Below are positions 24,411 through 29,916 of a DNA stretch of 64,000 bases, piece after piece; position 1 is the stretch's first letter, and each line of letters begins with the position of its first letter. The position numbers and the translations under genes were made by a program. The DNA is from Nemopilema nomurai (Eukaryota > Cnidaria > Scyphozoa > Rhizostomeae > Rhizostomatidae), in assembly GCA_003864495.1 (NCBI GenBank), contig ML133422.1, forward strand, positions 310,001 through 374,000. The letters are read 5' to 3'. The notes beneath the pieces are model-generated. The model was not told the origin of the DNA. It saw nothing but the letters and a program-made list of their open reading frames with translations, and searched no databases.

Positions 24411-24432
24411 TACTACAGAAATGAAGGTATTA

Positions 24433-25308
24433 CCAACAAGGGCACATTTTGTTCTAGACCAATCAGCGAGTTTGTTTACAAAATGTCATTAGCCAATCAC
24501 CTGCCTCCATTTCGAGCTTGATTTTCAATGCTTCAAACCAAAACACAGTTGCTGTGGAGAAAAACCTACCCCCCCCCCCCCCAATTTTTGCTCGGGAAAA
24601 AAATTTACTTCATTTTACAAAGAAGATCTTTCTAACTTAGATTCGTAAATAATTTTCTCGTAGAAATCTAGGAGCCCTAAGCAAACATTTATACCGATTG
24701 TAAAATATGTGCAGTAAAGCGACACCTATTTCCCGCCACCACCCTACCTCTAAAGTTGCCTACGCAAATTCTTGATTCCCCCCAAATCTGCTCGCTATGA
24801 AAATTTCTTGTTTTCCCGCAGAAGCACATTTCGATAAATATGATCTCAGATATTTTGTACAAACAAATCATCCAACCAAATGCTGATAAAACTGTTATTT
24901 CTAAAAAAAATCCCTCTTCAAAATCGCCTGTTGCCACCCTTACCCTACAACAGAGGATGCCTAGACCCTTTCTGAACCTCCGCTTATTTTGAACCAAAAC
25001 AAGAATATCCTTTCTCGTAAAAGGAAGACTTTAAGGAATTAAGCTTTTCAATAATTTTCTGAAATGTAGCTTTGCGTATAATGGCTGGGTAGGTTACAAT
25101 TTTTGGGAAAAAAGTGGATTGTGCAACACACGCAACCTGTCTATCCATTACTCGCGCCACACAAGTAACGCCACACAACACCAAACGTCAAGGCTAATTT
25201 TTGACATATCATAATTTGCCCGTGACTGGGATATCCTTCTTTGCATGTGGAAATCCGAACAGACTTGAACATATTAATTTTTTCTAAACTGCAGTTCTGA
25301 ACCATTAG
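24433..25308 (+). repeat. Left TIR of the 4.8-kb element
   Basis: 876 bp, starting CCAACAAGGGCAC and ending CCATTAG just before a G-run. It contains a C15-class homopolymer near 24570. Open frames seen here recur in the right arm only because the sequence is repeated; they are not genes. Confidence 0.9.
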
Positions 25309-25561
25309 GGGGGGGGGGGGCTGCTTTTTTATCTTAATCAAGAGATCGGAAATTACTTCCAGGGATTGCAAATGTTCTGTGGTGCATTATTTTGCGATAA
25401 TTTTTTGTTGATCTCTTCTCAAGTTTGGCACCTCCATCCCGATTAAATTTCCTAACAACAAACAAAAACGATAAACAAAACAAATATTTCATTGAAACGA
25501 AAACGTTCAAATCGAGACGAGATTGTTCACAGCAGGACAGAGCACGACACGAGGAGCAGAC

Positions 25562-27751
25562 TCACTCTATCGGGACGTTGGGGCGCTTCCAACTCCATAT
25601 TTGCTGTATTAGGGTTTCAATGCGCCCTGATTCAATCTTGACAACATTATGTTGGTCTTCAATGATGTCTTTTTCGTCCAAATTTGCGTCTTCATCGTCG
25701 AACTCATGGCGCTGGTCAATCTGAAACAGATCCTCAGTTGCTTTTGTTGCCAAGGTCGTCATCTCAATTGACAAAACGTGGTTGCACTTCGGACAAGAAC
25801 TGATGTCAGGAATCAAACAGACAGTGTGATACGAATGACCACTGCCACGAAAAACTCTCCACATTGGACTTTCTTTGTTCTCGCATTCATCTTTCATGTC
25901 GCATTTCCTGGTGAAAATGGAACGCATTTATAGATTAAAGAAGAAATAGCATCATTCTGTAATGTGTGTTATGTTCTGCAAGTAAGGTGGGATGTTGATT
26001 TTTTCTATGTTTACCCTTGAGATGTAAATTCACAATCTACCAATGTTATTGGAAAAATTCTAAAATTGAAAGGAAACAAGTTAGAAGGAGCACATTGTTC
26101 CAGAAAAAGGCGCTTCTCTGCAATTTTTAAAATTGACTCTTATAAGAAAGCAAATGTTTTGGAGAATTTTTGGTTGGGTACAAATTTTGTAGCTTGTTTA
26201 GTAAGAGACATGCATTTCTGTACATACCATGCAAAATGTCATCCTCAATTTCACCTGGAATTTTAATCAGCAGGCAAAAAGTTAAAGTTTGGTCTGAACA
26301 AAGTTTTATTTTGATAATTAGAAGTATTTTAATTTGTTATTTTCAATGCCAGATTAAAATTAATAACAACTAATCTTCTGACTTTTTGATACCCATTCTG
26401 AAAAAGTTAAATCTCACCTTAAAGGATCTGGTGAATACTTGTGAGAAAGATAGCCTAGAGGAAGAACATCATTTGTGACTGTGGTGTCCTTTCCAAAAAC
26501 AGTTGGTAAAATCCATTTAGTGGTGCGTTTACCAGGCTTTGGGATTCGGAGCAATTTTGCTTGATTTGGACTTTTAATAATATCTTTGAATTTGGTGATC
26601 AAGAATTCAGCTGCTTTCAGTTTAAGCATGTCGATGCTCTTGCTGCTAAAGTTGGTCTTACAATTGGGTACAAATGATGATTGAAACTTGTGAAGTTCAT
26701 TTTTCCTTGCATCTATCTCCCTAGCAGCCTGTTTAATCATTTCTTCATTGTCGGTTTTTGTAGTGTTGGCACGAAGGATAGAATGAAAGTTTTCTACTGG
26801 ATATTCATCAAAAGCATTCAGTGATGTATAAATTACATTGGAAAGAGGATGGTCAATACTCTTCCAGTATTCCATGTTAGAAAGAGCTATCAAAAGAGCC
26901 TTATCATAGTGCCTCCTTCTGAACATCATCCAACATCGAAACATCGAATCATAAAAGAGTTCTGCCTTATTTGCCTTAAATATCACAGAATAGATGCTCA
27001 AAGTGAGTGGGACATAGTTGTCGAGAAGGTTTAACAATGTGAGGAATTGCACATCTTTAGAATCTGCAAATGCAGACAGAATCGCATCTCTAATCAGCAA
27101 CCACCCACCATAAAGAACTTCCAAAAGAAGAGAGATTCGCCAAGGCTGTGGTTTCTCTGCAAGTATACTTTTGCCACCAAATATGGAGGCATACAATTCT
27201 TTGAAGAAAGTATAAAACTTCAAAACAACATTCTCACGAGCATTTAAAGATATGTGCAGAGGACCAAGGAATGGAACAAGATTATAGATACCCCGATCAT
27301 AAACAATTTGGCGAACAAAAAACTGACATGGCCAGTCTCCAATGAGTGGTACAAGAAACTTATTAATGTAGATGGACAGTCCATTCTCAAGTAGGAACTC
27401 AAATGCCACACGAAAGCTATCAACTGATTTTAGTGGAAGCTTAATGCAATCTGCAAGTTTACAGTCATCCATTGATCTCATAGTTTGAATTTCTTGGATC
27501 TCCTGTTTTTGGTAATCATGAACCAGCAATCTATTTCTTTGGGATTCTGGGTCAAAAAACTTTGCCTGGAGCCAATCTGGCATGACATCAACATATGTTT
27601 TGGAAAGGAGTGATGCATTTTCTTTTAAAAGAGGCTGAAGCAATGTATCATTGGCTGGTGTGATATCCTGATCAGCAAAATGATGGGGTTTAATTGCTGG
27701 GACTGTTGGAAATTTCTTTAAAAGAAGTGTTGCCATATGACTTACATACAT
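25562..27751 (-). CDS. Unclassified transposase-like protein with C-terminal RING/PHD-like finger
   Basis: Exon 27751-26414 (445 codons from ATG 27751) ends in AAG|GTGAGA; the next exon starts near 25912 after TTTTCACCAG and continues the frame (SPDPLR then KCDMKDEC) to a stop at 25562, about 560 residues in all. Visible blocks: LVHDYQKQEIQEIQ (77-90), PLIGDWPCQFFVRQIVYDRG (135-154), FLGPLHISLNARENVVLKFY (161-180), PWRISLLLEVLYGGWLLIRD (203-222), EYPVENFHSILRANT (316-330) and TKWILPTVFGK (411-421). The second exon has CDMKDEC, HSYHTVCL and CPKC, a RING/PHD-like set. Asp139 and Glu320 (VENFHS, compare the Glu in LESFH of Kolobok) are my candidates for catalytic acids; a third is not obvious. 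Sole gene in the element, so the transposase role is inferred. Upstream exons are possible. Confidence 0.7.
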
Positions 27752-28381
27752 ACATATGATAAGATGGGATTTTATTATTAATTATTTCGTTTTTCTTGGT
27801 TCTACACCATTTAAAATGGTCAGAATTCGAACAGAATTTGCGTACTTTCACCATCTCGTTCTCTCTTATCTAGTAAGTTTAGGCCACCGCGCCAAAAATC
27901 CCCGAGTTTCCCGCTAAAAAGCTCCCCGTACCCCAGGCCCCCTACAAGACTGTTTCGTTGAGAAGTTTAGAAATGCGAAAAATTCTAGCGAGAATGATGT
28001 TTTGTTCAAGCGCTGTTACATGAGATAAAAATATATTTCTTTCGACTTTCCTTTGCTTTACTGCCTGAATTGACGGGGATTTAAAACTTTTGCTTCGAAA
28101 TCCATTTTCTGGCTGCCGTGACTACTGTTCGTTAATAGTCTTTTAAATCATGATAGTATTTTTGGATTGAAAAATAACCAAAGAGGTCCCGGAAAAATGC
28201 TTCGTATTTTCTTTGAAGCACATGCCAAAAAAGTAAACAAAGAACCATTTCGAAGGGAACTTCGTTTTGATTTTTACGAAGTGTGGATTGCCCAGTGCTT
28301 TTGTCCTCATATTTTGTCAAGGGTTCTCCCCAACTAGCGGGAAATTTGAACTTGAATTAGTAGTATCTGGAGATCGGGCGA

Positions 28382-29259
28382 CTAATAGTTCAGAACTGCA
28401 GTTTAGAAAAAATTAATATGTTCAAGTCTGTTCGGATTTCCACATGCAAAGAAGGATATCCCAGTCACGGGCAAATTATGATATGTCAAAAATTAGCCTT
28501 GACGTTTGGTGTTGTGTGGCGTTACTTGTGTGGCGCGAGTAATGGATAGACAGGTTGCGTGTGTTGCACAATCCACTCTTTTCCCAAAAATTGTAACCTA
28601 CCCAGCCATTATACGCAAAGCTACATTTCAGAAAATTATTGAAAAGCTTAATTCCTTAAAGTCTTCCTTTTACGAGAAAGGATATTCTTGTTTTGGTTCA
28701 AAATAAGCGGAGGTTCAGAAAGGGCCTAGGCATCCTCTGTTGTAGAGCAAGGGTGGCAACAGGCGATTTTGAAGAGGGGTTTTTTTTTAGAAATAACAGT
28801 TTTATCAGCATTTGGTTGGATGATTTGTTTGTACAAAATATCTGAGATCATATTTATCGAAATGTGCTTCTGTGGGAAAACAAGAAATTTTCATAGCGAG
28901 CAGATTAGGGGAGAATCAAGAATTTGCGTAGGCAACTTTAGAGGTAGGGTGGTGGCGGGAAATAGGTGTCGCTTTACTGCACATATTTTACAATCGGTAT
29001 AAATGTTTGCTTAGGGCCCCTAGATTTCTACGAGAAAATTATTTACGGATCTAAGTTAGAAAGATCTTCTTTGTAAAATGAAGTAAATTTTTTTCCCGAG
29101 CAAAAATTGGGGGGGGGGGGGGTAGGTTTTTCTCCACAGCAACTGTGTTTTGGTTTGAAACATTGAAAAATCAAGCTCGAAATGGAGGCAGGTGATTGGC
29201 TAATGACATTTTGTAAACAAACTCGCTGATTGGTCTAGAACAAAATGTGCCCTTGTTGG
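28382..29259 (-). repeat. Right TIR of the 4.8-kb element
   Basis: 878 bp, reverse complement of 24433-25308, ending ...GTGCCCTTGTTGG before TATTA. The promoter of the minus-strand gene is expected here or in 27752-28381; no TATA element stood out. Confidence 0.9.
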
Positions 29260-29514
29260 TATTAGCTAACAAGATAGGTTTAGGTTCACCAAGTTGGTGT
29301 GGTAAATTATACATTGGTGGGTTACTGATACTGACGCCATGAAGAGTTTGCTCAAAACTACAGCCAACAAAAACAAGAAAGTTGGATACCTATTTTGAAA
29401 AGATAAATAGCACTACTCAAATGATATATTACTGTTAATGTTATCATTCTGCTTCGGAGTATACCTTTGCATATACCTGTTTCCAACTTTGCATGCAAAC
29501 GAACATGATGCTCA

Positions 29515-29752
29515 TCATTCGTTGTAATTTTTTCCGAGACTTTTACTTTTGACTCTAACATATTCACGGCAAGACAATTCCTCATCTATATTTATCTTTG
29601 AAAATGTTCTTTCGACTGCTGCCGTACTTTGTGGTAGTGCAGTTACGTTAAGCATGACTAGTGCCAGACTTTCATGTTCTTTGAGCTGTTTCATAGCTTT
29701 CCAAAAATCGTTTAGATTGACGCATGTGACGAATAAAGATGAATCATATGGC
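29515..29752 (-). pseudogene. hAT transposase, C-terminal dimerisation region
   Basis: The minus strand reads VNLNDFWKAMKQLKEHESLA, LVMLNVTALPQSTAAVERTF and SKINIDEEL. The block P-x-S-x-A-x-V-E-R-x-F-S is the hallmark of the hAT C-terminal domain. The rest of the transposase is not recognised upstream, and the frame ends soon after, so only a scrap remains. Confidence 0.85.
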
Positions 29753-29916
29753 AGCTACACTTAAATGTGCTAACATCTCGTGAATCTCTCTTCAGCAAGG
29801 TTGATGCACTCTGTTTTTGACCAAACATTACATTACACATGTCAGAAGCAAAAGCAATAATGTTCTCCAAAGGAATCTTCTACTCGTTAAAGAATTCTTG
29901 ACGCTGTATCAAGCAG

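Follow-up and report, generated by a model that had tools for sequence, protein, structure and literature searches.

An internally deleted DNA transposon with long inverted arms in Nemopilema nomurai, and its relatives with 9-bp target duplications

A 64,000-nucleotide stretch of the scyphozoan Nemopilema nomurai (contig ML133422.1, positions 310,001 to 374,000; G000:C56:310001-374000), hereafter the window, contains an element with very long inverted ends and a spliced minus-strand gene. An earlier note, made from the letters of this stretch, raised the question of whether the element is a structurally complete DNA transposon, of unclear superfamily, that makes 5-bp target duplications. Relatives were searched across the same 213-Mb genome. 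The element is in all likelihood an internally deleted, non-autonomous cut-and-paste DNA transposon, from a lineage that makes 9-bp target duplications.

In a self-comparison of the window, the arms were found as three ungapped blocks, 98-99% complementary (24425-25308 vs. 28382-29267), and 862 of 876 columns were identical in an arm-versus-arm alignment, so a DNA transposon with giant, near-identical inverted ends was correctly recognized. TATTA was also present outside CC/GG at both element ends, as described, but the duplication is 9 bp rather than 5 bp, with 8 of 9 positions matching in the window. For copies at other sites, the bases adjoining the tip AACAAGGG were target sequence, not CC/GG, and the duplication, measured outward from the tip A[AG]CAAGGGC, was 9 bp. 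TATTA forms the middle of a 9-bp duplication that is almost a palindrome, and the outer GG and CC of that duplication had been mistaken for element. The span was corrected to 24435-29257 (4823 bp), between GGTATTACC and GGTATTAGC; each true end is 2 bp inside the position given in the earlier note. That note had named differing ends in copies elsewhere as grounds for rejecting its boundaries, and the ends of those copies do differ.

Both ends were read for 16 copies in three related families, F1 (7 places), F2 (5) and F7 (4), where F1-F8 are family labels coined in this analysis; an F7 copy with a single end read (C15) was left out of the count. Perfect 9-bp duplications, instead of the 5-bp duplications that the earlier note suggested testing for, were present in 12 of the 16, at 10 distinct sites (3 + 4 + 3). 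Two more, the window copy and its allele C2, matched at 8/9. Within F1, duplications were 9/9 for C30 (GTCTCATAA) and C72a (ACGCCTTGC), and for C45 (CACCACATG) 9/9 only outside a compound end and 4/9 at the element's own edges. All five F2 copies (C25, C45b, C45c, C70 and C143) and all four F7 copies (C60, C45, C143a and C143b) were 9/9; F2 C143 has the C25 flanks reversed and F7 C143a and C143b share flanks, and each pair was counted as one site. In the F1 C45 compound end (L029:1250-1488 = C45:585249-585487), 203 bp of the opposite flank recur in inverted orientation (202/203 identical), together with a 36-bp extra transposon end, an arrangement suggestive of template switching in the course of insertion or repair. 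This copy lies within a Helitron reading frame (L029:7411-8490; PF14214, E 9e-61).

Structural completeness did not hold. The window element is 4823 bp vs. 6054 bp for C30, 6053 bp for C72b and 6002 bp for C45, and these three contain a ~1.4-kb stretch that is absent from the window. The distance from CCATCTTATC (replaced by CAATCTTATC in C72b) to the ATG of MATLLL was 31 bases in the window and C2, 1431 in C30, 1430 in C72b and 1401 in C45; in C7 it was 407, a smaller deletion with the same start point. The last three bases of the filler at the window junction are shared with the long copies, and the filler would fit interrupted gap repair. The C2 copy (L023/L024, C2:1366050-1378400) has the same flanks and deletion as the window; it also contains a LINE-like insertion that has RVT_1 and endonuclease domains.

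The gene model was built in C30, with splice sites that obey GT...AG and were predicted from sequence, and predicts exons of 83 codons, 2275 bases and 346 bases and a product of ~956 residues. Compared with this model, the window has lost 152 of 249 exon 1 bases, intron 1 and 316 exon 2 codons, including the FIDDYHNIH block, and its exon 1 remnant reads into the middle exon in the wrong frame and hits a stop after 54 codons. Spliced at the intron, the minus-strand open frames at 26414-27781 and 25562-25927 give 554 residues followed by a single terminal stop. The spliced frame of the earlier note is thus present, but not as one gene of ~560 codons, because it starts after the ~1.4-kb deletion, and its product is not the predicted transposase, as the note had implied. 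The middle-exon remnant (protein P0001, MATLLL... through ...SPDPLR) retains the GDWP, GPLH and EYPVENFHS blocks. The predicted C-terminal finger is Cys/His-rich as claimed, but has lost one metal ligand, with Ser in the window (RGSGH) vs. Cys in C30, C72b, C45, C7 and C2 (RGCGH). The window copy is probably incapable of moving itself; as both ends are present, it could be movable in trans by a long copy.

When the core was used as a DNA query, the F1 copies came back along with longer matches at 63-69% identity. A search with the window protein gave 92 matching stretches at E ≤ 0.001, a number that counts its own locus and in many cases several stretches of a single copy. F2 was found at five places (604 to 5308 bp) and F7 at four (5890-5953 bp). 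Both follow the F1 plan of long arms and A[AG]CA..GGGC tips, with the core and C-terminal finger in the copies read. The 18-bp F1/F2 tip, allowing at most one mismatch, occurred 28 times in the genome vs. 6 for the reversed pattern; the F7 tip occurred 24 times vs. 0. Many F7 tips were unpaired and one pair lay 430 bp apart (G000:C133:1062892-1063321), a pattern that suggests short derivatives. The F2 element C70 (604 bp) consists of arm sequence only, with F2 tips and a perfect 9-bp duplication, so non-autonomous derivatives do move. Long aligned stretches of F7 copies C15, C60 and C45 were 99.4-99.9% identical, and the two arms of C60 were 100% identical over 488 bp, from which we infer that F7 moved recently; the recent activity proposed for the window element therefore applies to its lineage. 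A 199-bp unit is repeated about twice within F2 arms, in numbers that vary between copies.

For protein comparisons, residues were numbered by L026:3285-5120. Conservation extends over five families (F1, F2, F3, F7 and F8), among which 149 columns were invariant, including D187, D188, D342, H369, D521, E522 and E526. Proportions of synonymous and nonsynonymous differences (pS/pN) were 0.79/0.27 for F1-F2 (595 codons), 0.84/0.25 for the C part of F1-F3 (315 codons) and 0.80/0.25 for the C part of F2-F3 (348 codons), the three of four comparisons in which synonymous sites were saturated; dN/dS was 0.20 for the N part of F1-F3 (196 codons). Nonsynonymous change is low to modest, and by these codon comparisons the gene is constrained at the protein level.

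From these alignments the protein is predicted to be a transposase with Asp, Asp and Glu as active-site residues in an RNase H fold. Long members measure ~5-6 kb and their arms ~0.5-0.9 kb, and they have a single gene with three or more exons. This gene would encode an N-terminal Cys/His motif (CxxxxH...CxxC) proposed for end binding, a central part with the invariant Asp, Asp and Glu (IDD, GDWP ... GPLH ... EY.VENFHS) as the proposed DDE active site, and a C-terminal RING-H2-like finger. The enzyme would bind the long arms, cut at the A[AG]CA..GGGC tips and join these to target ends staggered by 9 bp, leaving gaps for the host to fill.

Table 1. Positions of the window element and its parts, with the tandem units of F2 arms. 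Positions without a prefix are those of the window.
Feature	Position	Strand	Basis or remark
Left 9-bp target duplication GGTATTACC, includes TATTA	24426..24434	+	Length set by other copies
Left terminal inverted repeat, tip AACAAGGGCACATTTTG	24435..25308	+	Self-comparison, arm alignment
Last exon, RING-H2-like finger; TGA stop at low end	25562..25907	-	Open reading frame and splice model
Intron, donor GTGAGA, acceptor CACCAG	25908..26417	-	Splice sites predicted from sequence
Remaining part of large middle exon, from ATATGGCAACA	26418..27738	-	Open reading frame and copy alignment
16-19-bp filler ATATGTATGTATGTAAGTC at ~1.4-kb internal deletion junction	27739..27757	-	Same in allele C2
Exon 1 remnant (MVKVRKFCSNSDHFKW...)	27758..27854	-	Alignment to long copies
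Right terminal inverted repeat	28382..29257	-	Self-comparison, arm alignment
Right 9-bp target duplication GGTATTAGC, one mismatch vs. left	29258..29266	+	Flank comparison
F2 199-bp arm repeats	L054:1645-2027, L054:5983-6458, L053:5915-6307		

Just to the right of the element, a weak hAT dimerisation-domain match was seen on the minus strand (window 29518-29754; E 0.002, below the cut-off).

Pfam hmmscan of the F1, F2, F3, F7 and F8 cores gave nothing credible, nor did NCBIfam and PHROGs, and searches of PDB by sequence and by profile gave chance-level matches only; the earlier note's suspicion of an unclassified protein was upheld for Pfam, NCBIfam and PDB. Matches to DM_Arn (E 0.0035 and 0.0089), BRE1, LRR_5 and similar Pfam entries were below cut-off and were judged to be chance. 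At E ≤ 10 or E ≤ 1, the MULE model PF10551 matched neither the window protein nor the relative proteins; by contrast, it found at least 17 stretches elsewhere in this genome and recognised the two control proteins (L058 and L059), and no overlap was seen by eye between these stretches and the elements described here. No relative turned up in viral and prokaryote contigs, where the scans were sensitive to close relatives only. No earlier description of the lineage was found among the papers listed in the literature searched, Repbase Reports and most subscription journals being outside its coverage.

Several observations weigh against this reading of the element and its protein. None of the F1 copies read has a whole uninterrupted gene: frame breaks were present in C30, C72b, C45, C7 and C2, and C72a is truncated; assembly errors are a possible source of these interruptions. 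Flanks did not match in two mosaic copies, C7 (1/9) and C72b (2/9), and an empty site for the window insertion was searched for and none was found. Over the first 1500 alignment columns, C72b and C7 disagree at 1 of 1479 compared bases; over the columns that follow, C72b and C30 disagree at 2 of 4573. With C7 (L025) and C72b (L028) each located ~11 kb from a contig end, the unmatched flanks could come from assembly joins or from ectopic exchange. Long inverted arms were absent from the stretches fetched around F3, F4, F5 and F8 copies, which may be old or may have arms beyond those stretches. At the protein level, the F3 copy L055 has IGD in place of IDD and falls outside the invariant-column set there, and the five aligned families have GPLH, with the His kept, where C/DxxH is expected. 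The AlphaFold2 single-sequence model of the truncated window protein was unusable (mean predicted local distance difference test score 38.2). Comparison with two canonical same-genome MULEs by hhalign gave a probability of 0.1%, from thin profiles (6 or 8 vs. 2 sequences). Against a cut-off of 21.2 bits, the Pfam AAA model scored 23.1 bits (E 1.1e-4) in the IDD region of F3 and just less than the cut-off, 21.0 bits (5e-4), in that of F2, with no match in F1; an AAA identity was read as chance because the translated pieces have no Walker A motif.

The closest alternative is that the lineage is a Rehavkus-type member of MuDR, which would refine the reading as a 9-bp cut-and-paste lineage and not contradict it. 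Rehavkus duplicates 9 bp of its target, its arms range from 26 to 400 bp, and it carries a minisatellite as well as a PHD finger (PMC6446971); Rehavkus-1_TC has a 164-bp repeat in tandem arrays in its inverted termini (PMC10218199), and Rehavkus was moved into MuDR in Repbase on weak but significant similarity (PMC4455052). Shared with the lineage are the 9-bp duplications, the long inverted arms and a zinc finger in the predicted transposase, and the 199-bp tandem arm unit of F2 parallels the 164-bp units, though in F2 only: direct repeat families of ≥30 nt were absent from the window element and a tandem array from the F7 copy L071. The finger here appears closer to RING-H2 than to PHD, in that RING-type models scored first and PHD weakly, every score being below cut-off, and Rehavkus hosts are given as arthropods and annelids (PMC6446971). 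The likeness is one of anatomy, and we regard this assignment as possible, at somewhat less than an even chance.

Somewhat more tentatively, the elements may form a separate superfamily-level 9-bp lineage with a catalytic core of its own that lies outside all Pfam models, together with the N-terminal CxxxxH...CxxC motif and a built-in RING-H2-like finger. It would comprise at least 5 diverged protein families in this genome; for three of these, including the very recently mobile F7, both tips and duplications were read.

It is unlikely that the genome's canonical MULE transposases mobilise these elements as carriers in which the gene is a passenger and not the transposase. The Pfam MULE model has at least 17 matching stretches here, and the duplications made by MULEs are 8-11 bp long (PMC6446971); yet the same gene occurs in families whose arms are barely alignable at the DNA level, the F1 arm query matched 0 F2 or F7 places, the arm-only F2 element aligned with F1 over only 55-56 bp, and the gene appears constrained at the protein level. 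At one canonical MULE locus (C2:389300-396300), self-comparison gave no inverted arms, a result that speaks neither for nor against shared tips. A Transib/ProtoRAG relative with 5-bp duplications, which the earlier note had considered, is hardly credible. TATTA does flank CC...GG on both sides, but at other sites the duplication is 9 bp, which refutes the proposed length, and the bases beyond the A[AG]CA..GGGC tip are not constant; no Transib or RAG1 family was among the Pfam matches.

If the lineage is new, it would add one more catalytic family to the 20 or so superfamilies of eukaryotic DNA transposons (PMC9587614), and in F7, recently active, a RING-type finger would be fused to a predicted transposase, so that a role in targeting or protein turnover becomes testable. 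The locus also illustrates that a nearly palindromic 9-bp duplication can mimic a 5-bp one, and that a deleted copy read alone can mimic a complete element.

Among known systems, Kolobok shares with the element no more than the loose resemblance of the Glu block pointed out in the earlier note, and its 4-bp TTAA target (PMC9587614) was excluded, the duplications here being varied and 9 bp long. The Ghost clade of MULEs includes cnidarian sequences, and the most complete of its elements carries a reading frame for a RING finger, but that frame is separate, in an element without identified arms or duplications; arms of 177 bp are tabulated for a cnidarian subgroup (PMC6446971). The duplications fall within the 8-11-bp MuDR/MULE range and equal those of Rehavkus in length. 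Arms of hundreds of bp and a His after the second Asp are further likenesses to MuDR/MULE, the second Asp to His spacing being 27 residues vs. 24 in the MULE control L058 (counted by eye). Unlike in MuDR/MULE, PF10551 is silent, about 153 residues separate the first and second Asp, and GPLH replaces the C/DxxH signature placed between the second Asp and Glu in hAT, P, MuDR, Kolobok and Dada (PMC3706591). The predicted enzyme may represent a branch, so far undescribed, of an already known type of transposon. With its Rehavkus-like anatomy and a GPLH block that keeps the His, and by anatomy rather than by comparison with a Rehavkus sequence, the lineage is described as probably working most like a MuDR/Rehavkus element.

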